Positions 12,847-27,387 of a stretch of DNA of 28,573 bases are shown here, piece after piece. Source of the stretch: a virus; IMG/VR virus record IMGVR_UViG_3300037189_008230, positions 1 to 28,573 of that record; one strand, given 5' to 3'. Under the pieces are notes generated by a model. That model was not told where the DNA came from. It searched no databases and worked only from the letters and a program-made list of their open reading frames with translations. Within the stretch, counting starts at the first letter, position 1. Every line of letters begins with the position of its first letter. The position numbers were made by a program, and so were the translations under genes.

Positions 12847-13066
12847 AATCAACACAAGGCGACCAATCCAAGAGTGTCCACAATCACAGAAGGAACAAGT
12901 TGCTTGCGTCATTTATGGGGCAAAGCAAGTGGAGATCACCGGCATTGACCCGCCAATTGCGTTTCGTTGCGGCGGTAAAGTTTACACCGAATGCGAACGA
13001 CCTTACATCAAAACGCTGATGGATCGGGAATGGGAAACAGGATTGATTGACGGACGGGCTCAGTAA
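12836..13066 (+). CDS. Small hypothetical protein after terminase
   Basis: A 76-residue protein (MSIEINTRRPIQECPQSQKE) with single Cys residues at ECPQ, VACVI, FRCGG and YTECERP, four in all and possibly metal-binding. It overlaps the terminase end by 11 bases and the antisense gene's stop by 7 bases at its own end (13060-13066). The position is that of a gpW-type joiner in lambda, but the sequence does not look like gpW; that role better fits 14111-14374. Function unknown. Confidence 0.55.
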   Translation: MSIEINTRRPIQECPQSQKEQVACVIYGAKQVEITGIDPPIAFRCGGKVYTECERPYIKTLMDREWETGLIDGRAQ

Positions 13067-14046
13067 ACCACGCGAGCGTCAAGAATCGTGTCAGTCGTAT
13101 TTGCGTTCGTCACGATCACCATGCGAAGAAAGTCGTGGATCTGAGCAAAAACAACCGTCGTCCATGCGGAGGTTGAAAGGGTGATGTCCCCTTCCGAAGT
13201 CGTGTGCCAGTTTTGATTGTCGGTTGACGATTGAAAGCGGACCGTGATTGCATGATCGGTATAGTAGCGGAACATGGACGTTCCACCGTTGATCGAAACG
13301 GCAGACGACGTTCCCTTCATCAAGGCCGGCAAAGTCGCGGCACTGGCATCTTCTGTCGAAAATGTCAACTTGTTGGCCGCGGTCAAAACGGACGGAGAAA
13401 ACGTAAAAAGCTGAAGTCCGTCTGCACCGTCACGCGGAACCCGTTTGGCAAAATTGCTAGCGGATTCGGTAAACGTCCACGCGAGCTGGCGGTTGCACGG
13501 GATTCTGTCAGTCAGTGTCACAACCGAAGTCGAAACCGTAGCGGACAAGTAAGGATTGACCAAAGTTCCGGCGTAATACTCGGTCCCCGGCGTTCCGCTG
13601 GCGTTGATGGCCTTACTAAAATTCGACATTGTATCCTGAACCGTCGCGCCGATCTTCACGTCATACGCCGCCGCTAGCGTGTTTTTGAAGCGATAGGCGC
13701 GGGTGAATCCGGTTAATCCGATTGTCAGGGTTGCACCGTCTGATGGGTTTGTCAGGCCGGTAATGTCCCCCACCGCAGACGTTCCCGCCGCGTAACCGCT
13801 GACCGTCCCAGCCTCGCCAACTCCAAGAATTGCTTGGGTTAAAGCGGAAAAGCTGGATGTGGAATTGACCTCAACTTTGCCAGCGAGCGTCAATGTCTGC
13901 GATCCAGGTGCCGCGGAAATCGTGCCGTAGATCGCAAGCGTTGTCGCGTCAGCAGCGTTATCCGAGCGGATGTAAATAGGACCATCAACGACGGGTTGAG
14001 CAAGGATCGGATTTGAGGCAATAGTGGAAAAGGCAGTGTTTGACAT
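13060..14046 (-). CDS. Antisense virion-like protein
   Basis: A 328-residue protein encoded against the packaging/head operon. It is rich in Ser, Thr, Ala and Gly with beta-strand repeats (VVDGPIYIRSDNAADATTLAI; ATLTIGLTGFTRAYRFKN; VVTLTDRIPCNRQLAW) and a C-terminal part with FRYYTDHAITVRFQSSTDNQ and FLRMVIVTNANTTDTILD. This is the style of phage structural or adhesin-like proteins, not an enzyme. I recall similar segments in phage proteins of unknown function. No signal peptide. Stops of the two converging genes overlap by seven bases. Its own -10 box sits six bases before ATG 14046, so it can be expressed without the late operon. Confidence 0.75.
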   Translation of the reverse strand: MSNTAFSTIASNPILAQPVVDGPIYIRSDNAADATTLAIYGTISAAPGSQTLTLAGKVEVNSTSSFSALTQAILGVGEAGTVSGYAAGTSAVGDITGLTNPSDGATLTIGLTGFTRAYRFKNTLAAAYDVKIGATVQDTMSNFSKAINASGTPGTEYYAGTLVNPYLSATVSTSVVTLTDRIPCNRQLAWTFTESASNFAKRVPRDGADGLQLFTFSPSVLTAANKLTFSTEDASAATLPALMKGTSSAVSINGGTSMFRYYTDHAITVRFQSSTDNQNWHTTSEGDITLSTSAWTTVVFAQIHDFLRMVIVTNANTTDTILDARVVY

Positions 14047-14052
14047 GCCGCA

Positions 14053-14080
14053 ACCATATCAAAAAAGTTTTCTCTTGCAA
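14053..14080 (-). promoter_or_regulatory. Leaderless-type promoter of the antisense gene
   Basis: On the minus strand: TTGCAA (14080-14075), 16 bp, TATGGT (14058-14053), six bases (TGCGGC), ATG at 14046. Hexamer type, spacer length and -10 to ATG distance equal those of both switch promoters near 3700-3783. The -35 abuts a 25 bp quasi-palindrome at 14079-14103. Confidence 0.6.
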
Positions 14081-14103
14081 TCCTTAGTATTTTAGTAATG
14101 ATT
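14079..14103 (-). repeat. 25 bp quasi-palindromic element, copy 1
   Basis: On the minus strand this reads AATCATTA-N9-TAAGGATT and runs straight into the -35 of the antisense promoter. Related copies are at 21329-21353 and 27329-27353 on the plus strand. Shared core after orientation: TTACTAA or TTACCAA, then ACTAAGG or GCTAAGG. Confidence 0.6.
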
Positions 14104-14110
14104 CGCGCCA

Positions 14111-14374
14111 ATGGCGGTCAAGCAAACCCTCGTAGGACTGGAAGCATCGGATCTAATCGACATCCGTGATGCCTGCAAACGCGCTATTGTCTCCGGAACG
14201 GTCCGGGGCATCTCTTACACTATCGCTGGCCGTTCATTTAGTTTTCCATCGCTAGAATCAGCGCAAATTACGCTCCAAGAGGCATCTTATGCGCTTGGGT
14301 TAATCCAAGGCACTCGGTCTGAGCAGGTCCGATCGTGCTTTAATTCTAGCCTCGGACGAAACCGTCAATCGTGA
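14111..14374 (+). CDS. gpW-like head-tail joining protein
   Basis: An 87-residue protein whose core (LIDIRDACKRAIVSGTVRGIS, then YTIAGRSFSFPSLESAQ and LQEASYALGLI) follows the gpW fold of helix, beta hairpin, helix and is about the right length. In lambda, gpW closes the filled head and prepares it for tail attachment, and lies directly before the portal gene as here. Its stop overlaps the GTG start of the portal. Transcription must cross the divergent 14047-14110 region. Confidence 0.6.
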   Translation: MAVKQTLVGLEASDLIDIRDACKRAIVSGTVRGISYTIAGRSFSFPSLESAQITLQEASYALGLIQGTRSEQVRSCFNSSLGRNRQS

Positions 14375-16359
14375 AAGAGTTCAAGCCATCATTTCTTGAT
14401 CGAGCCGTTTGTGCCGTCGCCCCAATTTCGGGGATGAAGCGGCTAGCTGCACGTCGCGTTTTACATGAATTTCGATACGACGGAGCAGGAATGACCTACA
14501 AGCGGGCTAGCGCACCGCAAAATATGTCCCCGAACTCGTATGACGTTCAGCGGGACCGACTCCAGCTAATGCGCGAGGCCGAAGATCTTGAACGCAACTT
14601 TTCTCCAGCAAAAATGCTCAATAGGAAATACGCGCTCTATACTGCGCCGATTTCCTACCACGCACAGACGGGTGACAGCACGCTTGACCTAGAAGTCGAA
14701 TCTTACTTAAACGACGAAATCTTTCCAAATTGCGACGTTACTGGCCGATACGATTTTTTCAAAATGATGGAGTTCGGCATCATGGGCTGCAATCGCGGAG
14801 GTGATTACGGATGGGCATTTGTCCGACCTGGGCTGCAAGATGGAATGTCGGAAGATGAAGCTCTTGAGTTTGATTTGAAAATTCAAGCGGTCGAGCCAGA
14901 TCGAATTGGAGGCGTTTATCAAAATGTTGTTTCCAATAATTACGTTTCTGGCTGCATTATTGGGGAATATGGTGAGATTACCCACTTTCGAGTTTTCCAT
15001 CGGTCGATGACTTTGAATGTCTATGACAACCCGGTTGACATTCCAGCATTTCAATTTGTCCATTTTACCGATCCGCTACGAATTGACCAGTATCGCGGCG
15101 TTTCACGTTTGGCGACCGCCACAACCAACTTGCGCGATCTTTACGAGATGATTGATTTCGTCAAAGGAAAAGCCAAGCTGTCCAGTGCGTTGACGGTTTT
15201 CACCAATTCCAACGGCGCCACAATCGGCAGCGGAGCGATGGATCCTTACGGCGTCAATGTCCCCGGAGGCGGGGCAATGGCGATGCAACAGGATATCCAA
15301 TTTGGCCAGATTAATCACCTAGCGGGCGGAACCGACATCAAGTTTCCGTCAAGCAATTCTCCATCGAGCGAAGAGCAGGCTTTGATGACTATGCTCTTAA
15401 AGCTCACGGCAATGTCCTACGACTTGCCATATTCCTTTGCCTTGGATGCGTCGGCCCTCGGGGGAGTGTCTAGCCGACTCGAAAGTGAGCAGGCTAAAGC
15501 GGAGTTTGAGCGCGGGCAGCGCGTCCTTGCCCCTCATGCTCACCGTATCAAAAACGCTTTTCTTTTCGATGCAGTAGCAAAAGGCATTTTCCCGCAGCGT
15601 GTTCTCCGAAGCATTACGAAGGGGCGATGGGGCTACCGATCGCACCCGCAACCGGACATCGGTAAGGAAGCAACCGCAGCGGTGAATCTTTACCAGACGG
15701 GACTGCTTGACCCGCTCAAATACTGGGTGGACAACGCACAAGACCCGGAGGAAGTGGCAAAGTCGATGGGCCGTTGGCACCAGATCAAAACAAAGGTTGC
15801 CGAAGAAGTTGGAGTGCCGATTGAGGACATCTTTGGAAGCGGTCCCGCGAAGCCTCTCAGTGTATCGGAAAGCGCGACGGAATCCACTACTACGGACGCG
15901 ACCAATTCGGAAATGTCCCGCAAGAATTTCGGCAAGCATGATGCGCAAATCGGACAGCTTACGGATTCGATTCAAGGCAACCGAGCCAAACGTGATGACC
16001 TCAAACAAAAGCTGATCGACGTCCAATCGAAAGGCGACGATTTCTCACCTTCCCTCGTTCAACGACTTCGCGTTGAAATCGACCAGATCGACGCGCAAAT
16101 CCAGCGGGACAAGAACCAGCGAGCGCGGCTTCGCGGGCAGAATGACGCGCCGGAAAAAAAGCCGCCCACACCAGAAGAACAACGCGAAAAGATCAAGACG
16201 GCCATCAAGCGCGATGACCGTCACTCGCTTGTCATGGCATTGATCCACGAAGGCTATCCCGAAAACCAAGCCTACGCGATTAGCTACGACATCGTAGAGA
16301 ACGGGAGCTTCAACGCGAGCAAGTTGCCGAAATCCATCCGTGAAAAATACTACCCATGA
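14371..16359 (+). CDS. Portal protein, lambda GpB-like
   Basis: A 662-residue protein of the lambda portal family. It has an N-terminal MKRLAARRVLHEFRYDGAG, then MLNRKYALYTAPISYHAQTGD, MEFGIMGCNRGGDYGWAFVRP, VHFTDPLRIDQYRGVSRLA and the TM-helix-like region LKLTAMSYDLPYSFALDASA. It forms the dodecameric DNA entry ring. The last ~160 residues are a charged, coiled-coil-rich extension (RQIDQIDAQ-like repeats, KKPPTPEEQREKIKTAIKRD) not typical of lambda GpB (about 530). GTG 14371 starts it through a GTGA overlap; it ends with ATGA overlapping the protease gene. Confidence 0.85.
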   Translation: MKEFKPSFLDRAVCAVAPISGMKRLAARRVLHEFRYDGAGMTYKRASAPQNMSPNSYDVQRDRLQLMREAEDLERNFSPAKMLNRKYALYTAPISYHAQTGDSTLDLEVESYLNDEIFPNCDVTGRYDFFKMMEFGIMGCNRGGDYGWAFVRPGLQDGMSEDEALEFDLKIQAVEPDRIGGVYQNVVSNNYVSGCIIGEYGEITHFRVFHRSMTLNVYDNPVDIPAFQFVHFTDPLRIDQYRGVSRLATATTNLRDLYEMIDFVKGKAKLSSALTVFTNSNGATIGSGAMDPYGVNVPGGGAMAMQQDIQFGQINHLAGGTDIKFPSSNSPSSEEQALMTMLLKLTAMSYDLPYSFALDASALGGVSSRLESEQAKAEFERGQRVLAPHAHRIKNAFLFDAVAKGIFPQRVLRSITKGRWGYRSHPQPDIGKEATAAVNLYQTGLLDPLKYWVDNAQDPEEVAKSMGRWHQIKTKVAEEVGVPIEDIFGSGPAKPLSVSESATESTTTDATNSEMSRKNFGKHDAQIGQLTDSIQGNRAKRDDLKQKLIDVQSKGDDFSPSLVQRLRVEIDQIDAQIQRDKNQRARLRGQNDAPEKKPPTPEEQREKIKTAIKRDDRHSLVMALIHEGYPENQAYAISYDIVENGSFNASKLPKSIREKYYP

Positions 16360-17324
16360 AATACTTTTCAGCACTTAGCACTCCGGTAGTTGAATCCGAC
16401 AAGGGCATCATCCGTGCCGCGTCGCTCATTTCGATGGGAGACGCCAAGGGCCACTTTGACGACAAAGGCCGCCAGATCATTGTTGACGAGGTGACGCTTG
16501 AGCAGATTTTCAAGCAGTGCAAAAAGCTCGGCACGATCAAAGTCAAGGCCGACCACGGCAGCGGAGTTTTCGAGATCGTCGGATGGGCTGACAACTTTTG
16601 CATGACCGCCGAAAAGGTGCTTGCCGACATCCACCTTTACGAGTCGGAACCACGCCGCCCGCGCCTCCTCGAAATCGCAGCAACCAATCCCACTCACATG
16701 GGAATCAGTATGGAGTTCACCGGGGCTGACAAGGCACGCGGAACCGTTTGCTTGTCCCGCTGCGATGAAGTCGTCGCTGCCGCCATCGTGGACGACCCAG
16801 CCGCTAACTCTTCTTTATTCTCGGCAATTTCGCCAGAAACTGAAAACAACAAAAACATGGAACCTGAAAACACACCGGAAGAAACCCCGGATAAGTATGA
16901 AGAGTTGTCGAAGAAGTTCGACGCTCTTTCCTCACAAATGGAAGAAATGGCAAAGCGATTTGCTACTCCAGAACCCGACACCGATGAGGTTGAAAAGCCT
17001 GACGTTGTTGCCATTGATGAGCAAAACGAACCTGCTAAAAATCCAGATGCCGACATTGACGACGAAATCACCAAAAAGGTCGAAATGGCCGCTGAACGTG
17101 CTTTCAAGAAGTTTGCCGCGCAACTTGGAGTTTCGACGCTTAAGAAGCCAGGTAACAGCGGAAACGCTCCAAAGGTGAAAACCTATTCGGAGATGATTGA
17201 CGACGAAGCTAAGAACTTCGATGGCGACCGCGTAAAAGCCGAATCACTTCTTTTGTCGAAAATCGGCAAAGATGAATCAATCAAGAAGGCATACGCCGCT
17301 CATCGCTTGGTTAAATCTGCCTGA
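16356..17324 (+). CDS. Prohead protease-scaffold fusion
   Basis: A 322-residue protein. Residues 1-155 form a prohead protease: KVKADHGSGVFEIVGW (H67 as likely catalytic His), THMGISMEF (S118 as nucleophile) and AAIVDDPAAN (145-151), matching the common protease end VDxPAAN. From residue 160 the sequence becomes acidic and coiled-coil (KYEELSKKFDALSSQMEEMAK), then ends in a helical AAERAFKKFAAQLG, typical of scaffolding. The protease matures the head; the scaffold guides capsid assembly. An internal ATG at 16857 may give free scaffold. Confidence 0.8.
   Translation: MKYFSALSTPVVESDKGIIRAASLISMGDAKGHFDDKGRQIIVDEVTLEQIFKQCKKLGTIKVKADHGSGVFEIVGWADNFCMTAEKVLADIHLYESEPRRPRLLEIAATNPTHMGISMEFTGADKARGTVCLSRCDEVVAAAIVDDPAANSSLFSAISPETENNKNMEPENTPEETPDKYEELSKKFDALSSQMEEMAKRFATPEPDTDEVEKPDVVAIDEQNEPAKNPDADIDDEITKKVEMAAERAFKKFAAQLGVSTLKKPGNSGNAPKVKTYSEMIDDEAKNFDGDRVKAESLLLSKIGKDESIKKAYAAHRLVKSA
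16857..17324 (+). CDS. Possible internally started scaffold protein
   Basis: In frame with the protease gene, ATG 16857 (residue 168) is preceded by the A/C-rich GAAAACAACAAAAAC. This closely resembles the non-coding leader AACAACAAACGAACCAC of the next gene and others in the window. The product, 155 residues starting MEPENTPEETPDKYEELSKK, would be the entire scaffold domain without the protease. This parallels lambda, where Nu3 is started inside gene C. It is an inference from context and leader similarity. Confidence 0.5.
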   Translation: MEPENTPEETPDKYEELSKKFDALSSQMEEMAKRFATPEPDTDEVEKPDVVAIDEQNEPAKNPDADIDDEITKKVEMAAERAFKKFAAQLGVSTLKKPGNSGNAPKVKTYSEMIDDEAKNFDGDRVKAESLLLSKIGKDESIKKAYAAHRLVKSA

Positions 17325-17354
17325 TCCATTTTAACAACAAACGAACCACAAATT

Positions 17355-17717
17355 ATGTCCTCCCAAAATAGCGACGGATTTAAGTCGTTCCTTGCGTCTG
17401 GCGCGATTTCGGCTTATGTCGCAGTTGACGTTCAATCCGATGGAACAATCAAAGCATGTGCAAACGGCGTTTTCGGCGTTGGCGTGCTTCAAGAAGACGC
17501 GGCAGATGCAAATTATGCCAGCGTGAAACTTTGGTCTGCTCCCGGCACCTACATGGTCGCCGTTAGCGGAACCGCAGTCACTCCAGCAACAAGCTATTCC
17601 ATTATCACTGGTGGATTTGCCGGAACAGTGACCACTGGTAACAGCGCCTTTTTGAAGGGACTGAAAGCAGGGGTTGCATCCAACGGTATTGTTCTTGAGT
17701 TCTCGAAATACAACTAA
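17355..17717 (+). CDS. Head decoration (capsid cement) protein
   Basis: A 120-residue protein (SDGFKSFLASGAISAYVAVDV, then GVGVLQEDAADANYASVKLW) matching the pattern of small phage head decoration proteins of the gpD/DUF2190 type: an 'ASGAI' start, beta-rich body and glycine-rich C-terminus. They bind the outside of the capsid at three-fold positions and stabilise it. The position between scaffold and major capsid gene is the lambda C-D-E order. The leader AACAACAAACGAACCACAA has no Shine-Dalgarno. Confidence 0.75.
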   Translation: MSSQNSDGFKSFLASGAISAYVAVDVQSDGTIKACANGVFGVGVLQEDAADANYASVKLWSAPGTYMVAVSGTAVTPATSYSIITGGFAGTVTTGNSAFLKGLKAGVASNGIVLEFSKYN

Positions 17718-17751
17718 TCAATAAAGGAAGTAATTCCAACCACCAAAGACA

Positions 17752-18717
17752 ATGCCTTACACCAACTCACAAGCCACCCCTCGCAGCGACATCTACGCGC
17801 TTGCGATGCAGGCCAATGCCGACTTCAACAAACTCTTCATCGCCGACAAGATCCTTCCTGTCAAAAGCGAAGACGTGAAGCGCGGCATCTACATGCGTGC
17901 TAAGCTCGCCAACGCTGAATTGCTCAATGGCGATGCGCTTCCGCGCGAAGCTGGAGATGCTTATCAGCGCGTCAACCGCAAGTATGACACCGACACGTTC
18001 GATGCCGTTGAATACGGTCTGGAGTCCATTATTGACGACGCCTATGAGGCCGAAGTTGAACGGTTCATGAACATCGAAGCTACCGAAGCAAGTCTTCTTA
18101 TGAAGTCCCTTCAGATCAGCTACGAAACCCGTGTTGCCGCCGCTGTGATGAACGCTTCCACGTTTACCGCAACAGCAGCCGCCGTTGCCTATACCGAAGC
18201 TAACCTTGCTACGATTAACCTTCCAGCCGATGTCGCTGCTGCCAAGCTGCGCCTCTTGAAGAAGGGTATCGTTCCAAACGCTATCATCATGTCGGCAAAC
18301 GTGTTCTACCGCATTCAGCGTTCCACGCTCATGCAGAACCAGATTTTCGGTGTCGTTCCGAAGTCTGCGAGTCAGTTCACGCTTCCAGGTGAAGATGATG
18401 TTGCCCGCGCTCTCGGCGTGGATACGTTGTTTGTCGCCAAGGCTGCTTACAACGCCAACCAAAAGGGCCAGACCTATTCTGGCTCATTCATCTGGTCGGA
18501 TACATATGTTAGCGTTGCTCAAATCCAAGGCGGAGAATACCAAGCGGGCGGAATCGGACGGACGATCCAGTGGTCGAAAGACACGACTGGCTTGTTCACT
18601 CCCGAAACCTACCGTTCGGATGAGCGTCGCTCCAACGTGATGCGCGTTCGCCAGCACGTCGCTGAAAAAATCATCGACGAAACTGCCGCTGAACTAATCA
18701 CCACGTCCTACGCGTGA
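17752..18717 (+). CDS. Major capsid protein
   Basis: A 321-residue HK97-fold capsid subunit of the type seen in lambda-like phages. It has N-terminal YTNSQATPRSDIYALAMQANAD, then LPVKSEDVKRGIYMRAKLAN, VEYGLESIIDDAYEAEVERF, MKSLQISYETRVAAAVMN, a P-domain strand region around RLLKKGIVPNAIIMSANVFYRI and C-terminal RSNVMRVRQHVAEKIID. It lies directly after the decoration gene and is followed by a strong terminator, consistent with a need for high, self-contained expression. The leader is A/C-rich (CCAACCACCAAAGACA). Confidence 0.85.
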   Translation: MPYTNSQATPRSDIYALAMQANADFNKLFIADKILPVKSEDVKRGIYMRAKLANAELLNGDALPREAGDAYQRVNRKYDTDTFDAVEYGLESIIDDAYEAEVERFMNIEATEASLLMKSLQISYETRVAAAVMNASTFTATAAAVAYTEANLATINLPADVAAAKLRLLKKGIVPNAIIMSANVFYRIQRSTLMQNQIFGVVPKSASQFTLPGEDDVARALGVDTLFVAKAAYNANQKGQTYSGSFIWSDTYVSVAQIQGGEYQAGGIGRTIQWSKDTTGLFTPETYRSDERRSNVMRVRQHVAEKIIDETAAELITTSYA

Positions 18718-18725
18718 TGAACCAT

Positions 18726-18770
18726 GAGTCCCGCCGTTTGCTCATGGCGGCGGGACTCTACCTTTTTTTT
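18726..18770 (+). terminator. Intrinsic terminator after the major capsid gene
   Basis: GAGTCCCGCCG (18726-18736) pairs perfectly over 11 bases with CGGCGGGACTC (18748-18758), with an 11-base loop, followed by TACC and eight T. It lies nine bases after the capsid stop and ten bases before the next start codon. It should separate head transcription from the glycosyltransferase and tail genes. Confidence 0.9.
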
Positions 18771-18780
18771 ATAACTTATC

Positions 18781-20547
18781 ATGAAAATTACACTTGCCGC
18801 CATTGTTGGAAACGAGGAAGCCGTCATTGAACGCTTCATCCGTTCTTTTGCTCCCGCCGTCGATTCCATTGTTCTTGTGCGAGCCACTGGGACCAAGTTC
18901 CAAGACTGGACGCTTCGCAAAGCACAAGAGCTTTGCCTTGAACTTGAAAAACCAATCCACACCGAAGCCTATTTCAACTCGACCGATTTCCCTCACGTTG
19001 ACGACTTTGGGAAGGCAAGGCAAATAGCATGGGAGATCGCGGGCCGCACGGATTCTGATTGGCTGCTTTGGGCCGATGCCGACGACGTTCTTACCGATGG
19101 CGCAGCGGAGGCAATCCGCCAAGCAGCGGAAGACGGTAAGCATGAGGTTTACATCATGCCTTACAACGTTCGGGGGGACAAGCAAGTCGTCATGCGCGAA
19201 AGATTGATCCGCGCTGATCTTGGATCAAAATGGCGTTACCCCGTCCACGAACAACTCGCATTCCCGAAAGACGTGTCCTATCGTATCGTGACGGATGCTG
19301 TGTTCATTCACTCCCCGCTGGAATCAAAGACCGGAAGCCATGAGCGCAACGTGTCGATTCTCGAAACTCAGATCGAGCAATCCGCCCGCAATTTTTTTTA
19401 CCTCGCGCAAGAGTATTTTCAGACAAACCAAATCGGGAAATTCAAGCGGGCCGCAAAAGCCTCGCTCGCATGTGGGAACCTTGACCGAATCGAGCAATAC
19501 GAACTTCTATTGCAACTCTCCCAGGTTGGCGAGGATTCCAAGCGTAACGCGGCGGAAGCGTTCGCGCTCATGCCGGATCGACGCGAGGCACTGGCATTGC
19601 TCGCCAATTACGCGCTGATCGACGGCGACAACAAAAAGGCATTGATGCTGGCGGAACGGATCGACGACACGCCGGCGCCGTCGATGACCTATTGGAATCA
19701 AAACAACGAATGGTATGGGTGGAAAGCGAAAGAGCTTTACCGTCAATGCCTTCGATTAAACGACAGGGAGATTGAGGCGAAAAATGATTTCGAGGCTGAA
19801 ACAAATCCCGATTACCCGATCTTCTCAATCATTCACGCCACGCTTGATCGTCCAGAAAAGGCACTAGCCATCCGTGAAATGTGGCTTTCCCGCGCCAATC
19901 ACCCGGAGAACGTTGATTACATTTTCGGAATGCATGCATGGGATGAAAAAAGCATCCGATTGCTAAAGGGCTTCAAGCACACGATCACCGATCAAAAGGG
20001 ACCAGGCTGGAATTACGACACGGCAGCAGGCGCAGCGATTGGCGAAATCATCGTCCAAGCGCAAGACGATTGCTATCCGCCGCAGGGCTGGGATGATGCA
20101 CTTTGGAAGATCATGGGCGATATTGACGAGCCCGTTTTCGTCGCGCCAAACGACGGCCATCGAATCGACCGCTTGAGCGTCAACACGATCATGACGCGAT
20201 CTTACATGGAACTAAAAGCCTCTCGCGACCTAGGAGAAAATGGTTTCTTTCATCGTGGGTATCCGACTGTCTTTCCAGACACCGAAAACAGTTTTCGAGC
20301 CATCCAAGACGACAAGGCGGGGCTTTGCCGTTACGTTTGGGCTCCCGAGTTTGTTCTTTATCACGATCACCCGGCATTCAACCCAGCGATTCCATGGGAC
20401 GCAACTTATCAATGGGAAAACGCGGAACCGCATTACGTCGCTGGCGAAAAGATCTTTTACGAGCGCAACCCGGAAGCGTTGGCGGAAAAGAACGGCATCG
20501 GAATCTCTGAAACCAAAGAGGCAAAACTTGAATTTGCAACGGCATGA
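18781..20547 (+). CDS. Two-domain glycosyltransferase
   Basis: A 588-residue protein. Domain 1 (about 1-190) is GT2-like: ITLAAIVGNEEAVIERFIRSF at the start, SDWLLWADADDVLTDGA (93-107) with the DxD metal motif, and PVHEQLAF. The middle (195-335) is helical and TPR-like (FFYLAQEYFQTNQIGKFKRA; ALLANYALIDGDNKKA). Domain 2 (345-530) is another glycosyltransferase-like domain: IFSIIHATLDRPEKALAIREMW at the start and IIVQAQDDCYPPQGWDDALW (423-442) with an acidic pair. It would transfer sugars to a virion or host surface glycan. A TATAAC hexamer five bases before the ATG could drive leaderless mRNA, but no -35 is visible because the terminator is there. Confidence 0.8.
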   Translation: MKITLAAIVGNEEAVIERFIRSFAPAVDSIVLVRATGTKFQDWTLRKAQELCLELEKPIHTEAYFNSTDFPHVDDFGKARQIAWEIAGRTDSDWLLWADADDVLTDGAAEAIRQAAEDGKHEVYIMPYNVRGDKQVVMRERLIRADLGSKWRYPVHEQLAFPKDVSYRIVTDAVFIHSPLESKTGSHERNVSILETQIEQSARNFFYLAQEYFQTNQIGKFKRAAKASLACGNLDRIEQYELLLQLSQVGEDSKRNAAEAFALMPDRREALALLANYALIDGDNKKALMLAERIDDTPAPSMTYWNQNNEWYGWKAKELYRQCLRLNDREIEAKNDFEAETNPDYPIFSIIHATLDRPEKALAIREMWLSRANHPENVDYIFGMHAWDEKSIRLLKGFKHTITDQKGPGWNYDTAAGAAIGEIIVQAQDDCYPPQGWDDALWKIMGDIDEPVFVAPNDGHRIDRLSVNTIMTRSYMELKASRDLGENGFFHRGYPTVFPDTENSFRAIQDDKAGLCRYVWAPEFVLYHDHPAFNPAIPWDATYQWENAEPHYVAGEKIFYERNPEALAEKNGIGISETKEAKLEFATA

Positions 20548-20885
20548 GCGACACAATGCAAGACTACATGGCGTCCGACCTTTCGGAGCTTTTCGACCGG
20601 GACATGCCCGCCGAATGCAAGGTCGGCGCGAAAACCTACATTGTCCTGGTTGACGACCTTCTTAGCGACGAGGCGGAAGGCTACGGCGGGCCGGAAGCGA
20701 TCGACATGCAGCGCGTCCACTTCAAGGCGTCCGACCGCGACAGCATCGAGATCGGAACCAAGCTGGGAGTCCGTCAAAAGGCCGTCACCGGGCAATCCGT
20801 CAAACCGTGGAAATCCAAGATCGTTCTTTCGTCCATCCTTTCGGCGGATGGCAACGAACTGATCGCAACCGTAAGAGGAGCCTAA
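20544..20885 (+). CDS. Neck/head-completion-like hypothetical protein
   Basis: A 113-residue protein (MQDYMASDLSELFDRDMPAE at residue 5) with IVLVDDLLSDEAEGYGGPEAID in the middle and a beta-rich C-terminus (KIVLSSILSADGNELIATVRG). The gene lies where lambda gpFII-type head-tail connectors lie, between head genes and the tail terminator. This is a placement-based guess; I see no decisive motif. Coupled to the glycosyltransferase stop by ATGA (20544-20547). Confidence 0.55.
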   Translation: MSDTMQDYMASDLSELFDRDMPAECKVGAKTYIVLVDDLLSDEAEGYGGPEAIDMQRVHFKASDRDSIEIGTKLGVRQKAVTGQSVKPWKSKIVLSSILSADGNELIATVRGA

Positions 20886-20888
20886 GCC

Positions 20889-21329
20889 ATGATCCTCCAA
20901 GACACTGAAAAAGCGATTCAGGGGCTACTACAAGCGACCATCACGGACGCGGTTGGAAATAAGCTCCAAGTCCCGGTTTACCTTTCCGACGCTGACATCA
21001 CGAAAGCGCCCATGCCCTACGTCGTGATCCAGTGCAACGAATCGGAGGAGCAAATCACCCCCGGAAGCGGCATTTTCAAGGTATCCGGCACCCTTGCGTT
21101 CCGCAGTCACACGAAGGAAAACACCCCCGGTTTTCGCCAGAAGGTTTTGGATGCGATCAACAACTTTGCCTACGACTCGACCGCCGCGAAGCTCTCTCAA
21201 ACCGCTGGATTCCACTGCCACGGATGGCAACCGACGACCGGGGTAATTTCGACTGACAACGACAGAAAATCCACCAATTACGACATGACCTATTGGGTTT
21301 ACTGCATGTCGCTTGACCAGCTTGCATGA
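20889..21329 (+). CDS. Tail terminator/completion-like protein
   Basis: A 146-residue protein (MILQDTEKAIQGLLQATIT at the start) with VPVYLSDADITKAPMPYVVIQ, then GTLAFRSHTKENTPGF and TYWVYCMSLDQLA, in the style of gpU/tail-terminator proteins of about 130-150 residues. These cap the growing tail tube. It is followed by the small tail tube candidate, the expected order. Here a purine-rich AGAGGAG lies 8-14 bases upstream of the ATG, one of the few Shine-Dalgarno-like starts in the window. Confidence 0.55.
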   Translation: MILQDTEKAIQGLLQATITDAVGNKLQVPVYLSDADITKAPMPYVVIQCNESEEQITPGSGIFKVSGTLAFRSHTKENTPGFRQKVLDAINNFAYDSTAAKLSQTAGFHCHGWQPTTGVISTDNDRKSTNYDMTYWVYCMSLDQLA

Positions 21330-21353
21330 ATCCTTACTAATTCGCTAAGGATT
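21329..21353 (+). repeat. 25 bp quasi-palindromic element, copy 2
   Basis: AATCCTTA, nine bases, TAAGGATT: a perfect 8 bp inverted repeat starting on the last base of the preceding stop. Three bases later comes TTGAAA (21357-21362) and, 17 bp on, TAGAAC, a promoter-like pair. Matching copies lie at 14079-14103 (inverted) and 27329-27353. Confidence 0.65.
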
Positions 21354-21356
21354 AGC

Positions 21357-21385
21357 TTGAAATGACAGATCAAAACGATTAGAAC
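21357..21385 (+). promoter_or_regulatory. Putative promoter for tail genes
   Basis: TTGAAA (21357-21362), 17 bp spacer, TAGAAC (21380-21385), then an A/C-rich leader (CAAACCAACAAACACTC) to the ATG at 21409. The hexamers are moderate matches to sigma70 consensus. The 25 bp element lies just upstream. Confidence 0.45.
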
Positions 21386-21408
21386 CAAACCAACAAACAC
21401 TCAAAATT

Positions 21409-21771
21409 ATGGCTGTCATCACAATCGGCACGACCGGCGCAACCTGGGGCTTGACCGCAGAAACCGGAATCCTCGTTCAAACCACGTCCAGCAAGGACAC
21501 CCGCGAAAAGAATCAAGTCCGTGACGAGCAAGGCGACTTTGCCCTTGTCGCGTTCTACAACCCGACGCAGGCGATTAGCATTGCTGGCGTCATCGTTAGC
21601 ACCACCGGAGTTGCTGCTGCGGCACCCGGCGTATCCCTCGCGTTCGCAAACAAAAACGGACTCAATGGCGTCACAACTGGCGGCATCTACACGGATGACG
21701 TGGACGTGGCTGGTGGTAATACCGAGTTCAAGAAGATCACCGCAACCGCGACCCGCTACAAGTTCGCGTAA
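21409..21771 (+). CDS. Putative major tail tube protein
   Basis: A 120-residue, beta-rich, Thr/Ala/Gly-rich protein (ITIGTTGATWGLTAETGILVQ, then VRDEQGDFALVAFYNPTQ and EFKKITATATRYKFA). Its placement between the tail terminator and the chaperone/tape-measure genes is that of a tail tube protein, and its own promoter fits a high-copy subunit. It is smaller than lambda gpV (about 246), so the identification is by position and composition, not by motif. Confidence 0.5.
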   Translation: MAVITIGTTGATWGLTAETGILVQTTSSKDTREKNQVRDEQGDFALVAFYNPTQAISIAGVIVSTTGVAAAAPGVSLAFANKNGLNGVTTGGIYTDDVDVAGGNTEFKKITATATRYKFA

Positions 21772-21783
21772 ACCATCAAACCT

Positions 21784-22188
21784 ATGACAGATATTTTCGT
21801 CACCGACATCAAGTTGGCGTCCATTCTAGTAGCCCTCGGCGTTCCTCGGCGTCCAAGTGATCCTGTCACTTGCGAAATCGAGGAACGCCACGGCGTTAGG
21901 AAGGAACAATTCAAGTTTTGGTTTGGCTTGGACAACCCGGACCACCGGGACACAGCCAAGGAAATCATCAATGCTTACTCTAAGGCGCGAAATTGGGAAG
22001 AGTTCACGATGGACAAGGAACATCCGATTTACTGGATGAAAGGCGTTCTTGAAAACCGGGAATGCTACCTTGGAGAAATCCGCAAGAAAGTCGCGCCAAT
22101 CCGAATCATCCAGGTAGGCGAAAAAACCGTTCTCATCGGCGAACACGCAAGCCGTGAATTGCGTGACAAAATGAAGAAACTACTATGA
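21784..22188 (+). CDS. Tail-region hypothetical protein
   Basis: A 134-residue protein: MTDIFVTDIKLASILVALGV at the start, FKFWFGLDNPDHRDTAKEIIN in the middle and IRIIQVGEKTVLIGEHASRE near the end. It has Lys/Glu-rich helical segments. It sits between the tube candidate and the chaperone genes and overlaps the next gene by ATGA (22185-22188). No family recognised. Confidence 0.55.
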   Translation: MTDIFVTDIKLASILVALGVPRRPSDPVTCEIEERHGVRKEQFKFWFGLDNPDHRDTAKEIINAYSKARNWEEFTMDKEHPIYWMKGVLENRECYLGEIRKKVAPIRIIQVGEKTVLIGEHASRELRDKMKKLL

Positions 22189-22556
22189 CCGACACACTCG
22201 AAACAATCGACACGATGGATCAAACTTGGGAGTTCAAGGGAATCGAAATCCTTGCACCGAGCTACTCAAGAAAGGCCAACATCATCAGCCTTCTCAACTC
22301 GTCCAACTTCGGACCGACCGATGCCGCGACGTTCCTTTTCGGGTGCATTTGCCCTGAAGCTGAACTTCGCAAGGGTCGCCGCAAACCGGAAGACTTTGAC
22401 GCCGAGGTTGCTAAATGGATGGACAAAATCAAATACGGACCGAGCGATTACGCCGCTGCTGCTGAGTTGTTCAGCGCGATCATGCAGCATTCCAACAGCA
22501 ACCGCGCCGTTCCTATTTCCGATCCATCCTTGGAACCGGACCCACTGGGAAACTAA
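22185..22556 (+). CDS. Tail assembly chaperone, gpG-like (zero-frame product)
   Basis: A 123-residue protein (MDQTWEFKGIEILAPSYSRKA near residue 11, FGPTDAATFLFGCICPEAE in the middle) ending PDPLGN at TAA 22554-22556. Position just before the tape measure gene and the -1 frame continuation identify it as the shorter of the two tail chaperones that coat the tape measure during tail assembly. The last sense codons GGA AAC form part of the slippery heptamer. Confidence 0.75.
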   Translation: MTDTLETIDTMDQTWEFKGIEILAPSYSRKANIISLLNSSNFGPTDAATFLFGCICPEAELRKGRRKPEDFDAEVAKWMDKIKYGPSDYAAAAELFSAIMQHSNSNRAVPISDPSLEPDPLGN

Positions 22557-22750
22557 TCGACCCACCAGATGAAGCAGCTTACGTCGCCCTCATTGCCCGT
22601 TACACAGGATGGAGCGAACACTTCATTCGGTGGGAACTACCACTTGCACGCGGAAACGCCTATTGCCACGCGTTCATGCGAATGCAGAACGTCAACACTG
22701 AGCCGGAATCATCCTGCTCTGAACTTGCAAAACTGATTGATGAGATTTGA
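22185..22750 (+). CDS. Tail assembly chaperone fusion, gpGT-like, by -1 frameshift
   Basis: Slipping back one base on G-GGA-AAC (22547-22553) bypasses the TAA and continues from CTA at 22553 for 65 codons to TGA at 22748-22750. The added part reads LIDPPDEAAYVALIARYTGW, ending ELAKLIDEI. It is coding-like, whereas no other frame is, and it fills the otherwise unexplained 22557-22750 gap. The fusion would be 188 residues. In lambda the gpG/gpGT ratio is set by a similar GGGAAAG site. The next gene overlaps its end by 11 bases. Confidence 0.8.
22547..22553 (+). other. -1 ribosomal frameshift slippery site GGGAAAC
   Basis: The heptamer fits X XXY YYZ exactly in the zero frame (G GGA AAC), with the zero-frame stop TAA immediately after. 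Both tRNAs re-pair as GGG and AAA after slipping. The site is in the same place as lambda's GGGAAAG, at the end of gpG. Confidence 0.85.
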
Positions 22751-23189
22751 CCCGTCAGGCTTTGACAGCGCATTTGACCGCATGGAGGAAACCGCCAAGC
22801 GACAAGGCAAAACCGTAGCGGAACAGCAGGGACAGTTTTTTATCAAGATTGCCAAGGCGCAAGGATGGCTAATTGCGCCGTCATCTCATACGATTATTGA
22901 TAAGGTTAAAAGCCTTAAAGGTCGAATCCTCCACTACAATAAAAGGTCAACTGTCAAACAAGAGCTTGATCGACGCATCCGCGCCCGTGGCACGTTCGCC
23001 CGCAAATGGGTGACGACGAAGATTGAGAGCGTGGGTTTTTCAATCCGCATTTGGGTGATGAACAAATCGGCATTCTCCGAAATCGTGGACAAGCAGAAGC
23101 ACGTTTTCGACAAGTCGGCGGAAATGGCGAAATCCGGCTACAAAGCCAAGCTCGACAAGCTCGCAGATCAAACCACGAAAGCATTCTGA
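22740..23189 (+). CDS. Minor tail protein-like hypothetical
   Basis: A 149-residue basic, helical protein (MRFDPSGFDSAFDRMEETAKR at the start; QGQFFIKIAKAQGWLIAPSS; KQELDRRIRARGTFARKWVTT; SGYKAKLDKLADQTTKAF at the end). It lies between the tail chaperones and the tape measure, where some phages have small tail proteins. ATG 22740 is chosen; a TTG three bases earlier would add one residue. No secure family match. Confidence 0.55.
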   Translation: MRFDPSGFDSAFDRMEETAKRQGKTVAEQQGQFFIKIAKAQGWLIAPSSHTIIDKVKSLKGRILHYNKRSTVKQELDRRIRARGTFARKWVTTKIESVGFSIRIWVMNKSAFSEIVDKQKHVFDKSAEMAKSGYKAKLDKLADQTTKAF

Positions 23190-23192
23190 ACC

Positions 23193-24680
23193 ATGGCAAG
23201 TCCCGGACCAAAAGCAATCGGCTACCTTGAACTTAATATCGACGGGTTCGACAAGGCCATCAAGTCGGCCAAGAACCTTTTAGGCGGTTTGGCTGCCGGG
23301 TTCGCAGCGTTCAAGGTTGGCGAGTTTTTCAAAGATGGCATCAAGGATGCAATCGACTTTGGGAAGGAGATGCAAAACGCATCCCGGACGATGGCGGGAT
23401 TCGATCCTGGCAACATCCTCCTAGTTCAAAAGGCTCTCGAAAAAACCGGGATGGGAGCGCAGGAAGCGCAAGGCCATATTGACGACTTCATCAAGTCGGG
23501 CCGCGACATTTCGGAAATCTTTATGGGCGCAGACAACTACGCCGCCGCGTTAAAAGACGCATCAAAAGACTATGGACAGCAAGCCGACATTTTGACCCGT
23601 TCCGGCAAGGCGCTGCAAACCGTATGGAACACAATGGAAGCGATCAGCTCCAAGGTCAGGACGTTCTTTTTAGCCATGACGGAGCAGTTCGTTAAGCCGC
23701 TTCAAGTCGCGCTTGATTACCTTAATCAGATCGACCTTGGGAGCATCGGCGAGGAGTTCGGGAAATACATCGCGGACGCAGCCAACATCTTGATCGGACT
23801 TTTCGCAAATGGCGACATTTACACGGCGTTACAACTCGGCTTGACGTTGGCTTTTAAGGAGTCGGTCAACTGGCTTGTGGGAGGATTCAACTACCTCGCC
23901 AACCTCACGATTCCTTACATTGGAGAACAGCTAGGCAAGGCACTTCTCTGGTCGGTCGAAATGATGAAGAAGGGATTTGACCTGATCTTCAGCGGGGAAG
24001 GCGTCCAGACGTTTGCAGAAGCGTTTGTTGGCATCGCGTCGAAGTTCATTGCCTCAATCCTTGACGGCTTGAACGTCATCTTTCGGACCATGCAAGCAGG
24101 CGTGCAATACGCGGTGCAAGCAGGAATCGAAGCGATTCCTGGCGCAAAGGAGTTTCTTGGAATGAGCGGCGTCGAAAGCCAATCATTCGGTGATCTTTAC
24201 GACCAGACAAGCGGCATTGTCCCGCAAGACATAATCGACTCACTCAAAAACGCGGGCGGTCAACTTCTCGACGGCGTTGGCGAGAAGCTATCAGGGTTGA
24301 AAGAAGCCATGTTCAAACCGGGCGAGGCTGGCGTTTTCCAAAAAGCCAACGTCTTTAACACCGACGACGACAAAGCGAAGTTTGCCGACGTAATCGGACG
24401 CGCAACCGCAACCGCGCAGGAGATGGGCGGGAAAGCAGGGAAGGGCGAGCAGGCGTCAAAGATCCTTACCAACCTTTCGACCAACGCCGGAAGTCGCTAC
24501 GTCATCGCGGACAATCTTGCCAAGGTAGGCGGCGGCGGTGGGTATCTCAAAGTAGGAATGACCCTTTCTGAGCGGACCGCCGTCGAGCAACTCAAAGCTC
24601 AAAAGCAGTCGGAAAAGACACTTCAAGCGATTAAAAAAAATACCGAACCGAGGACTCGGCCAGTAACACTCGCACGCTAA
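23193..24680 (+). CDS. Tape measure protein
   Basis: A 495-residue protein with the alternating hydrophobic and helical segments of a tape measure: ELNIDGFDKAIKSAKNLLGG at the start, GLAAGFAAFKVGEFFKDGIKD, then membrane-like segments (IADAANILIGLFANGD; WLVGGFNYLANLTIPYI; FVGIASKFIASILDGL) and a charged helical C-terminus (AVEQLKAQKQSEKTLQAIKKN). Tape measure length sets tail length; about 1.5 Å per residue predicts a tail near 75 nm, shorter than lambda's. It follows the chaperones as expected. Confidence 0.8.
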   Translation: MASPGPKAIGYLELNIDGFDKAIKSAKNLLGGLAAGFAAFKVGEFFKDGIKDAIDFGKEMQNASRTMAGFDPGNILLVQKALEKTGMGAQEAQGHIDDFIKSGRDISEIFMGADNYAAALKDASKDYGQQADILTRSGKALQTVWNTMEAISSKVRTFFLAMTEQFVKPLQVALDYLNQIDLGSIGEEFGKYIADAANILIGLFANGDIYTALQLGLTLAFKESVNWLVGGFNYLANLTIPYIGEQLGKALLWSVEMMKKGFDLIFSGEGVQTFAEAFVGIASKFIASILDGLNVIFRTMQAGVQYAVQAGIEAIPGAKEFLGMSGVESQSFGDLYDQTSGIVPQDIIDSLKNAGGQLLDGVGEKLSGLKEAMFKPGEAGVFQKANVFNTDDDKAKFADVIGRATATAQEMGGKAGKGEQASKILTNLSTNAGSRYVIADNLAKVGGGGGYLKVGMTLSERTAVEQLKAQKQSEKTLQAIKKNTEPRTRPVTLAR

Positions 24681-24681
24681 C

Positions 24682-25401
24682 ATGGCTACAATCAAAATCG
24701 GCAACGTCACCGGAGCGATCTACCAAGCGGAGCGCCCGCTGCATCTTAACCCGGACGGGAGCGCACAGGCGTCTCTTACCTACAAGTGCGCTGACACGTC
24801 GGCCTTTGCTGTCATCCCGGCTTACCTCACAAACCACCCGTTCATTCCCGCGCTCAAGTGCTACGAGTCGGACCTTGACCAAGAACACGGCGGAATCATT
24901 CGGATCACGTCGATTTATCGCGGAGTCATTGCCCAGAATCCCGAATCACTAGCACAGCATGAATACAGCAGGACATTGACGGAAGCACCGATTGAGACGA
25001 ATCCAGCATACTACCTGCCCCGTGACAATCCGCCAGTAACAGCAGCGAACATCAACGATATTGAGTTGAGGCTTCAAAATTGCCAAGACGCGAATCCAGC
25101 ATGGAGCGAACTTGTGAAAGGGCTCTGGGAAAAAAAACGTCGCGGCATTGAATCATTTTTGAAGCCGGGTGCAATTTATAAACGCACATACGCGAGCGAT
25201 TCAATCCCGAGCAGTGGATTGCTTGATAAAGTCGGCAAAAGACTTGCTCCACCGTCTCCATGTCCACCTGCACCCATTGGTCAAAATTATCTTGTGATGG
25301 GAGTCTCATGGACTAAGCAGGCGGGCGTCGTCACCATTGTTGAAGAATACCAGCTTTCCGGCCCCGGAGGATGGGATCCTGACCTTTATCCACAAGGATG
25401 A
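24682..25401 (+). CDS. Tail-tip region hypothetical protein
   Basis: A 239-residue protein with a beta-rich N-terminus (MATIKIGNVTGAIYQAERPLH), Cys in TYKCADT, KCYESD and NCQDA, and a C-terminal IGQNYLVMGVSWTKQAGVVTI. It follows the tape measure, where distal tail or baseplate proteins lie, but I do not recognise the family. It overlaps the next gene by ATGA (25398-25401). Confidence 0.6.
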   Translation: MATIKIGNVTGAIYQAERPLHLNPDGSAQASLTYKCADTSAFAVIPAYLTNHPFIPALKCYESDLDQEHGGIIRITSIYRGVIAQNPESLAQHEYSRTLTEAPIETNPAYYLPRDNPPVTAANINDIELRLQNCQDANPAWSELVKGLWEKKRRGIESFLKPGAIYKRTYASDSIPSSGLLDKVGKRLAPPSPCPPAPIGQNYLVMGVSWTKQAGVVTIVEEYQLSGPGGWDPDLYPQG

Positions 25402-26021
25402 ATAATTTGCCACATTTTCAGCCAAACAATCCAATTTACTCTGAGCTTTCATCGGTTCGTTTAAATTCCATTGTTCAGAATCAACTGGCGAGTGATATTA
25501 AACCGGGGTTTGGAATTAGAACCTCGCGCACGCCGGGAGGAACTACGCTTTCAATTATTAAAAAACGATCTCCCGCAACTACAAGCCTTTGCCCATTCGG
25601 GGAAATCATAAGCGTCGAATTAGAAGGATTCACCAGAGGCATTCGCGGCGGTGTCTGCTATTGCGGAGACAAGAATTTCAACGTGCCGCCCATGGGGATC
25701 AATCTAGGTGCCGATGGCGCATGGCTCGTCTATCTATCGGTTCCGTGCGAATCTCAGCGCGACGATGATGGGGAAATCTTTTTACCTGGCATCGTGACTT
25801 CAAGCGCCTCCGCGGGAAGCTTATTCGCTAAGATAGCATGGACGGAGGGAACAAACTATCCCGACAACACCAACCCGGACGTGTCAGATGGACTCGGAAC
25901 CGTGATCATACCCCTTGGGAAGCTGACGATCAAGAATGGCGGTGCAGATTTTGAAAAGGTTGGTTGCGGCAACGTGACGATCAATCAGTGCGCCGGAATC
26001 CTCAGCGCCTCACGCGAATGA
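25398..26021 (+). CDS. Tail-tip region hypothetical protein
   Basis: A 207-residue protein (MNNLPHFQPNNPIYSELSSV at the start), beta-rich, with GGVCYCGDKNFNVPPMGINLG in the middle and VGCGNVTINQCAGILSASRE at the end. Four or more Cys residues suggest a metal-binding or disulfide-linked structural protein. Its first part is A/T-richer than neighbours. It is coupled to both neighbours by ATGA overlaps. No family recognised. Confidence 0.6.
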   Translation: MNNLPHFQPNNPIYSELSSVRLNSIVQNQLASDIKPGFGIRTSRTPGGTTLSIIKKRSPATTSLCPFGEIISVELEGFTRGIRGGVCYCGDKNFNVPPMGINLGADGAWLVYLSVPCESQRDDDGEIFLPGIVTSSASAGSLFAKIAWTEGTNYPDNTNPDVSDGLGTVIIPLGKLTIKNGGADFEKVGCGNVTINQCAGILSASRE

Positions 26022-27178
26022 AGATCGTCACCATCGACGAGGTGAACTCCCTCGGCTGCTGCCCTTGCACTCTGCCGACGTGCGATTCGCCTAGAGAGGG
26101 GTTTGAGTCACGCTCGGCCAGCTACACCATCACTTGTGCCTTTGATGGCGGGGTGATCGGCTCCGCTCCCTTGGTGCCTTGTAATGTTCTGAACGGAAAG
26201 TTTCGCACCTACACCGAGGAAAGCACCTACTCCTTCACTCGGCATATCGATGACAGTGGCGGGAATTCCCGAGACTTCGCTTTTGAAAGTCATATCACGA
26301 CGACGGTGACCTACACGCTGGCGGATGTAGAGGGTGAGCGGGTTTGTAGCTCAAGAGAAGTCTGGAACTACACTTTAAATAATACCACCACTTATAGTTA
26401 TTCATCGCCAGTCTCGACCGACATTCTCACTGATGTTTACATCTCCAGCGGTGCATACGATTCGGATGCTCCCCCTGCGGTTTGCACTACCACCCGCACG
26501 GTGACCTATTCCGGCTTACCGCCTGTTGTAACGACGAATGCGGTTTGTCAGACAGTGCCATCCACCGCAGTTGGTGGGGTTCTGGCGGGCACGGCGGTAA
26601 CCTACACGGATACCTTCGGGGATGCTAACTCGGGCGTGACCACGATCACCACGATTAAAACGGTGTCGGATCGCTGGACCGAGGCGCAAATGGTCTCGGA
26701 GTTGGATCTGCTGTTGGCGGCAGAGGCATTGGTTGCCGGCGGCGCATTCGTCGCCAAGCTGGACGTCACCTACGCATCGTGCCCTGTTGATCCAGAGGCG
26801 GATCCTGTGGTCTATGAGCCTGCTCTCGATTGCCCGCTATCATGCTCCGCGATCGAGGGGCGTTACCGCTATGGTGTCCCCTATGGCTATGAACGTACCA
26901 CTTGGGAAATGCAGTGGGATGAGGGTTTCTTTCCGCAGGCGTGGCTCGATTGGGATTCGGGCGGCAGGATCGGTTCGGAGCCCACCCGTCCCACGCGCCT
27001 TACTGCCCGCTCATGGATCTATGGCGGCACCGATGAGTGGTCGGATTGGTTTGATCTCCCCGCGCCGGATGAGGCCGGGGAGATCCGCCGGGTAAACGTC
27101 ATGATCAAGTGCTGGAAGAGCACCCGCCATGGAGTCAAGCCAACCGCCTTCGGTCCGGTATTCGTATTCGATTCATGA
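26018..27178 (+). CDS. Cys-rich tail-tip protein of distinct composition
   Basis: A 386-residue protein starting MKIVTIDEVNSLGCCPCTLPT, long beta-rich stretches full of Thr, Ser and Tyr (YTLNNTTTYSYSSPVSTDIL; VTYTDTFGDANSGVTTITTI), a helix (QMVSELDLLLAAEALVA), and a C-terminal part with SCPVDPEADPVVYEP, LDCPLSCSAIEGRY and many aromatics (TDEWSDWFDLPAP). The gene is visibly G/C-richer than its upstream neighbour, and its codon choice (CTG, GTG, GGG) differs, suggesting acquisition from another source. The start is set by ATGA at 26018-26021; the tail-tip or receptor-binding role is inferred by position. Confidence 0.6.
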   Translation: MKIVTIDEVNSLGCCPCTLPTCDSPREGFESRSASYTITCAFDGGVIGSAPLVPCNVLNGKFRTYTEESTYSFTRHIDDSGGNSRDFAFESHITTTVTYTLADVEGERVCSSREVWNYTLNNTTTYSYSSPVSTDILTDVYISSGAYDSDAPPAVCTTTRTVTYSGLPPVVTTNAVCQTVPSTAVGGVLAGTAVTYTDTFGDANSGVTTITTIKTVSDRWTEAQMVSELDLLLAAEALVAGGAFVAKLDVTYASCPVDPEADPVVYEPALDCPLSCSAIEGRYRYGVPYGYERTTWEMQWDEGFFPQAWLDWDSGGRIGSEPTRPTRLTARSWIYGGTDEWSDWFDLPAPDEAGEIRRVNVMIKCWKSTRHGVKPTAFGPVFVFDS

Positions 27179-27348
27179 GCCAACCTTCTTCCGGTGAATG
27201 GCCTCGCCCGCGTGCCCGGAAGTTGCCGGTCGGCACGCCAGAACGTCCGGTCGGCGTTCCGATCTTGACCACTCCCGGAGCGTCTACACAGGCACGGTGC
27301 AAAACTTGCCCGCCTACTACTCAAAAGAAATCCTTACCAATCCACTAA
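27175..27348 (+). CDS. Small Pro/Arg-rich protein
   Basis: A 57-residue basic protein (MSQPSSGEWPRPRARKLPVG at the start) with a CKTC knuckle near the end (ARCKTCPPTTQKKSLPIH). The start overlaps the previous stop by ATGA; the final codons lie inside the 25 bp element at 27329, which supplies its TAA. No family recognised; the low complexity makes it a moderate call. Confidence 0.45.
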   Translation: MSQPSSGEWPRPRARKLPVGTPERPVGVPILTTPGASTQARCKTCPPTTQKKSLPIH

Positions 27349-27353
27349 GGTTT
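27329..27353 (+). repeat. 25 bp quasi-palindromic element, copy 3
   Basis: AATCCTTA, nine bases (CCAATCCAC), TAAGGTTT, one mismatch from perfect symmetry. Five bases later comes TTGACA (27359-27364), a perfect -35 match. Copies 1 and 2 lie at 14079-14103 and 21329-21353. Confidence 0.65.
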
Positions 27354-27358
27354 TCAAA

Positions 27359-27387
27359 TTGACATTCACCGCCAAAAATAGAAATCT
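27359..27387 (+). promoter_or_regulatory. Putative promoter for baseplate/fibre genes
   Basis: TTGACA at 27359-27364 matches the -35 consensus. A -10 is less clear: AAATCT after 17 bp (27382-27387), six bases before the ATG at 27394, or TAGAAA after 14 bp. The first option gives the same -10 to ATG spacing as the leaderless promoters. Confidence 0.4.

Follow-up and report, generated by a model that had tools for sequence, protein, structure and literature searches.

A 25-bp palindrome at structural-gene promoters of a phage genome recurs in unrelated phages

The window, by which we mean the whole stretch of 28,573 nucleotides of the virus record IMGVR_UViG_3300037189_008230, contains three 25-bp palindromes of the type AATCCTTA-N9-TAAGGATT, at 14079 (minus strand), 21329 (plus strand) and 27329 (plus strand). 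Their coordinates and strands and the adjoining -35-like hexamers, as given by a first-pass annotation made from the sequence alone, were all confirmed. Two placements are distinguished in the following. Type P palindromes are internal to the promoter: they occupy the spacer between -35 and -10, are centred near -20 and have TAAGGW in the right arm. Type U palindromes end 3-5 bp before the -35, with their centre at about -52 (window copies 2 and 3 and sites in the phages L121, L259 and L297). The features under study are:

13060..14046, minus strand: divergent gene, 328 aa, no clear family, predicted leaderless start
13533..13557, minus strand: weak fourth match with 1 mismatch, inside the 13060-14046 gene
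14075..14080, both strands (self-complementary): TTGCAA, candidate -35 of putative promoters, overlapping copy 1 by two bases
14079..14103, minus strand: copy 1, type P for the 14111 operon, the same site being kept in L010 and L013-type phages
14111..14374, plus strand: small gene, 87 aa, first in the portal/protease/capsid operon
21329..21353, plus strand: copy 2, perfect arms, type U
21357..21362, plus strand: TTGAAA, putative -35, 3 bp after copy 2
21409..21771, plus strand: 120-aa gene after copy 2, a tail-region gene by position
27329..27353, plus strand: copy 3, type U, overlapping the 3' end of the small gene 27175-27348
27359..27364, plus strand: TTGACA, candidate -35, 5 bp after copy 3
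27394..27795, plus strand: 133-aa gene after copy 3, in the distal tail region by position

The copies had been described as intergenic or gene-terminal. The second part of this description holds, since the first base of copy 2 is the last base of the stop codon of the gene 20889-21329 and copy 3 includes the last codons and the stop of the gene 27175-27348, which is conserved in L293; "intergenic" applies only partly. Copy 1 faces two ways. On the plus strand it sits between the -35 and -10 of the 14111 operon with a degenerate right arm (TAATGATT), and on the minus strand it adjoins, and partly overlaps, the -35 of the divergent 13060-14046 gene. On the minus strand TTGCAA is followed after N16 by TATGGT, with the ATG 28 nt after the hexamer; on the plus strand an ATG follows the hexamer after 30 nt. 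As a self-complementary candidate -35, TTGCAA can be used by both predicted divergent promoters. At copy 2, the candidate -10 for TTGAAA is TAGAAC after N17. The copy 3 promoter combines a perfect -35 with a poor -10 (best 3/6), and gene 27394 starts 29 nt past TTGACA, a leaderless spacing. In contrast, the promoters of the 27394 orthologues in L049/L050 are palindrome-free and have AATAAT (5/6) as -10, a difference that fits activation from the U position. The gaps from palindrome to -35 in the window are thus -2, +3 and +5. Between copies 1 and 2, at 18726-18758, a strong terminator-like hairpin with a T-run directly follows the capsid gene and precedes a glycosyltransferase-like gene (18781-20547).

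The repetition of the palindrome is far beyond chance. An untargeted search of the window for inverted-repeat families (8-bp arms, gap 9, at most 1 mismatch) recovered the three copies as 3 agreeing pairs, against a mean of 0.08 in 200 dinucleotide shuffles, none of which reached 3. With gaps of 0-15 allowed, the trio was still the sole three-member family. When the same search was applied to 14 other phage sequences, identical arms emerged only in L289, an unrelated phage. A pattern search of the genome and its relatives, which had been proposed as a check, found the element in relatives and in unrelated phages and added just one weak match in the window, the intragenic one at 13533-13557. 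Its arms vary among relatives, with substitutions in L031 (CTACAGTTT), and it is probably a coding coincidence outside the palindrome system. A partial match, TTACTAATT, that had been pointed out as a related site lies at 9753-9761, not at 9754-9762; it comes without a palindrome and looks like chance.

Relatives were gathered by searches with TerL and the capsid protein, which yielded about 80 loci. The arms are unchanged (0/16) in all close relatives, while the flanks differ by about 1-31%. This applies to copy 1 against five close relatives (arms 0/16) and to copy 2 against L039 (arms 0/16, loop 3/9 changed). Copy 3 is identical over its 25 bp in L185/L293; against L293 it shows 0/25 changes and the 300 bp upstream differ at 87/299 sites (29%). 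Since copy 3 encodes the last codons and the stop of 27175-27348, part of its constraint could be coding. Among the relatives, a spacing of 9 alone yields arm matches of 15-16/16. The distance of copy 1 to the 14111 gene start is the same in L010 and in the group L013/L014/L015/L032, where the homologues of the 14111 gene are 59-69% identical, whereas the distance to the divergent 13060 gene shifts by about 24 bp in these phages. Copy 1 is therefore anchored to the plus-strand operon.

In L010 and the L013/L014/L015/L032 group, the palindrome fills the space from TTTACA or TTGCTA to TAAGGT or TAAGGG. The loci L019, L021, L023, L041 and L055 have the same promoter with TTGAC/TTTACA-N16-TT(A/G)CTAAGGW and no left arm. 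This right-half form reads TTGAC-N16-TTTACTAAGG (CTTGGTAAGG in L021); it is located about 100 nt or more upstream of a gene that mostly has its own Shine-Dalgarno sequence, and L055 carries a second one at its 27394 orthologue. A right half that is kept so far from a gene with its own Shine-Dalgarno sequence marks TAAGGW as the likely -10, and it counts against a ribosome-binding site. The orthologues of the 13060 gene that were inspected (L006, L010, L017, L020, L021, L032, L041, L043, L048) share TTGNNN/TTTACA about 28 nt before the ATG, and we predict leaderless transcripts for them. Between the 13060 and 14111 orthologues of L021, L041, L043, L048 and L055 lies a leader of ~100-150 nt. It contains a strong hairpin, which is followed by a T-run in several of these phages. 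The leader gave no Rfam match; possibly it is an attenuator or a small RNA that was lost in the clade of the window.

The geometry of the promoters is recurrent. At most of the other copies the palindrome is inside the promoter and not upstream of it. The placement just upstream of a -35, as noted in the first-pass annotation, was found again, independently, in L121, L259 and L297, where the gaps are 3-4 bp. The -35/-10 spacers of P sites measure 15-17 bp, and the dyad is placed consistently relative to both hexamers across three phage groups. TAAGGW usually follows a TTG(A/C)C-like or TTTACA -35 after 16-17 nt, a spacing that is more frequent than with control hexamers, in a count that is inflated by related contigs. 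It is the likely -10 at P sites. TTACTAA, which had been suggested as a -10 within the element, is absent from copy 3 and from most homologous copies, and TAAGGW is the conserved candidate in its place. In the promoters compared, that of copy 2 excepted, the start codon is found 28-32 nt after the -35; upstream of the scaffold gene of the L121/L259 group, a conserved ATC at the predicted start point takes the place of the start codon in this spacing. From this we infer leaderless mRNAs, with both the start points and the promoter activity being predictions.

Scans of the collection with the palindrome and then with its refined form detected the element in two further, unrelated phage groups. 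The first (F2) comprises about 18 contigs; their GC is 0.62-0.66, and their portal, protease and terminase genes are Mu-like. Here the palindrome lies between the hexamers of TTGCCA-N17-TAAGGA upstream of the portal gene and of TTGACT-N16-TAAGGT upstream of the protease gene. The second (F3) consists of L121, L259 and the related L297. L121 and L259 have P sites ahead of the gene upstream of the portal gene, and tandem U and P palindromes, 33-35 bp apart with the -35 sandwiched between them, at the scaffold gene. L297 has only the upstream palindrome and TAAAAG as -10, and at the place of the P site it reads TTTGCTAAAAG with the left arm absent. Each record carries 1-3 copies at head-gene promoters, and the reversed-pattern control gave zero. 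A strict scan returned the groups F1-F3, the T7-like phage L176 and a few matches at chance level. We discarded the many exact matches of the first collection scan that are coding sequence in one conserved gene, and thus coincidence, as well as the matches in L299 and L301-L303, which look like chance or terminators. The copies in the T7-like phages L176/L178/L188 were set aside as possible terminators; in L176 (3273) and L188 (3603) the palindrome follows the terminase and lysis region and is itself followed by T-runs. There was no convincing motif in Verrucomicrobia phage P8625, Akkermansia phage Chantilly and phage C75C1. The consensus over 17 copies, which were collected by motif similarity, is AATCCTTASYAANTTRSTAAGGATT, with both arms about equally conserved, and the 25-bp element can be written as 12-bp half-sites AATCCTTASYAA around one central base. 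By its occurrence at head-gene promoters of distant relatives (L010, L013) and in two unrelated groups, the element is not confined to one phage.

Overall, repetition, conservation, promoter-like geometry and occurrence in unrelated phages establish the palindrome as a real, conserved regulatory element. The best explanation, which we hold with moderate confidence, is that it is the operator of a dimeric DNA-binding regulator at the promoters of head and tail structural genes. Its parts differ in strength. That an operator is present at structural promoters, one site type as first proposed, is well supported by the comparisons, and it is probable that one regulator would serve all copies. A division of labour, with repression from P sites and activation from U sites, has a somewhat less than even chance. 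On a P site, the regulator would sit over the -10, in competition with RNA polymerase; on a U site, it would touch the polymerase from the side of a normal activator. At copy 1 it might act in both ways simultaneously, holding back the 14111 head operon while helping the divergent 13060 gene, and copies 2 and 3 would assist initiation at the 21409 and 27394 tail operons.

The first-pass annotation had suggested a phage regulator for the site, and a phage-encoded protein is not supported. An all-against-all BLAST protein comparison revealed no regulator gene common to F1, F2 and F3; the genes that they do have in common are for recombination, methylation and SSB-like proteins only (RuvC-like 79%, methyltransferase 78%, SSB-like 54% identity). 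Regulators of the Mor/C family (PF08765) were found in 0/13 records and those of the Ogr/Delta family (PF04606) in 0/14 records at E ≤ 1, with the reservation that the records may be incomplete. A stand-alone DnaA-domain-IV protein does not track the site in its distribution, as it is present only in the window, in G033 and weakly in G002, and for the 3493-3699 protein the sole HTH match is below threshold. The DnaA-domain-IV protein of the window (51-356; PF08299, E 1.8e-9) is phage-encoded. In the same part of the window, duplicated segments (353-565 / 2197-2467 and 535-849 / 2970-3464), which encode a small Cys-rich protein and the start of the RuvC-like gene, flank an SbcC-like gene (788-2152).

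Since the groups have no regulator gene in common, a host factor is the simplest guess, and it is more likely that the regulator is encoded by the host, or is a protein still to be recognised, than that it is one of the genes found in these phages. The RuvC-like resolvase of the window (2970-3464) is ~79% identical to that of L290 (4568-5104), an otherwise unrelated phage. This degree of identity points to recent gene exchange among the phage groups and thus implies related hosts. Weak hints at a verrucomicrobial host come from TerL, whose matches extend to phage P8625, and from the F2 portal, which is closest to Akkermansia phage Chantilly. When 84,980 bacterial and archaeal genomes were scanned with the strict pattern, there were 5 scattered matches in Bacillota and Bacteroidota and no regulon, and a capsid search of the genome collection for the host gave no match. 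Rfam and tRNA scans revealed nothing relevant, and neither did the literature on the sequence or on promoters of Verrucomicrobia phages. We put forward tentatively that phages which infect one host group, probably Verrucomicrobiota, but are themselves unrelated have each come independently to carry the operator of one host factor inside their structural-gene promoters, whereby a single host protein would time capsid and tail synthesis in several phage lineages.

The operator has to be weighed against other readings. The element might be promoter sequence only, with the right half (TTKRC-TAAGGW) as an extended -10 for the host polymerase or an alternative sigma factor and the left arm as its mirror image, leading to a partly bidirectional start without any separate regulator. 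The five loci that keep the right half without a left arm at N16 from TTGAC/TTTACA agree with this, as do L297, where TTTGCTAAAAG stands alone at the same place, and L013, in which both sides carry TTGAC/TTGCT. Given the right-half loci, some of the conservation could be due to promoter sequence alone. However, over the 17 copies the conservation of the left arm equals or exceeds that of the right one, and most P sites have no -35 on the opposite strand. Moreover, copies 2 and 3 and the U sites of L121/L259 are without a good -35 at N16-17 upstream, so that the right arm is unlikely to be an ordinary -10 there. We regard promoter sequence alone as an unlikely explanation.

It is rather improbable that every copy is the site of a late activator of the P2 Ogr or Mu C kind that recruits polymerase. 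The placement near -52 at copies 2 and 3 and in L121, L259 and L297, the weak -10s and the operon layout of a divergent head site and tail sites, which resembles the P2 late promoters (PMC3931495), would suit such a protein. Nevertheless, the palindrome covers the -10 in P sites, none of the records tested has a member of the Ogr_Delta or Mor families, and the distance to the -35 varies (-2, 3, 4, 5 bp), which is awkward for an activator with a strict contact. A pure repressor operator that keeps the structural genes silent until late is quite improbable, even though three phage groups have P sites that overlap both -35 and -10 and the tandem sites 33-35 bp apart in L121/L259 could bind cooperatively: the U-only promoters (copies 2 and 3, L297) have both hexamers free, and there are no copies at early genes, where a lysogeny repressor would act. 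Finally, an element acting in the RNA, as a terminator hairpin or a hairpin that hides a Shine-Dalgarno sequence (TAAGGA), is very improbable: TAAGGA does match the anti-Shine-Dalgarno and is found 6-9 nt ahead of a number of start codons, the fold of copy 3 is somewhat better than those of its shuffles (z -2.0) and the T7-like L176/L188 copies precede T-runs, but the folds in the window are weak (-6 to -7 kcal/mol), copy 1 does not fold on the minus strand, no window copy has a terminator-like site (GC-rich hairpin plus T-run) or is followed by a T-run, TAAGG lies about 100 nt from a start codon with its own Shine-Dalgarno sequence in L041, L055 and similar loci, and the invariant -35 spacing would stay unexplained.

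An operator for a dimeric regulator thus remains our preferred reading. As a rule, a late-gene control element belongs to a single phage lineage, which brings its own activator. The present 25-bp element occurs with a recurring geometry at the structural promoters of three phage groups, and no regulator gene common to them was found; this suggests a common, perhaps host-encoded, late-gene switch for which the element is a ready probe. The promoter map additionally predicts leaderless starts for several structural genes.

Several known systems resemble the element in part. MerR-type operators have their palindrome in an over-long spacer of 19-20 bp, whereas the P-site spacers described here are 15-17 bp. 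HrcA/CIRCE and other inverted repeats with a 9-nt spacer have the same arm-N9-arm geometry in promoters, but the sequence is unrelated, the inner bases are conserved here and no heat-shock genes are involved. The CI operators of lambda are located at the divergent PR/PRM promoters, and one dimer that covers one promoter and touches the divergent polymerase is what we propose for copy 1; unlike in lambda, the genes are structural, the operators are mostly single and there is no CI-like gene in common. Phage Mu has a dyad at its late promoters, including a promoter that precedes the protease gene I, and the Mu-like-head group shares this position; yet no Mor-family protein was found here, and both sequence and spacer differ. 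The late promoters of P2 carry the activator site TGT-N12-ACA for Ogr/Delta (PMC3931495). The present element differs from it in sequence and size, its consensus being AATCCTTASYAANTTRSTAAGGATT and not TGT-N12-ACA upstream of the -35, in that no Ogr_Delta homologue occurs in the records tested, in that many copies lie inside the promoter, and in being common to unrelated phages. The resemblance to P2 is in the layout, where one site type serves several structural operons and the dyad is repeated at a divergent head operon and at separate tail operons: in the window, the same dyad is found at one divergent pair (14079) and at 21329 and 27329.
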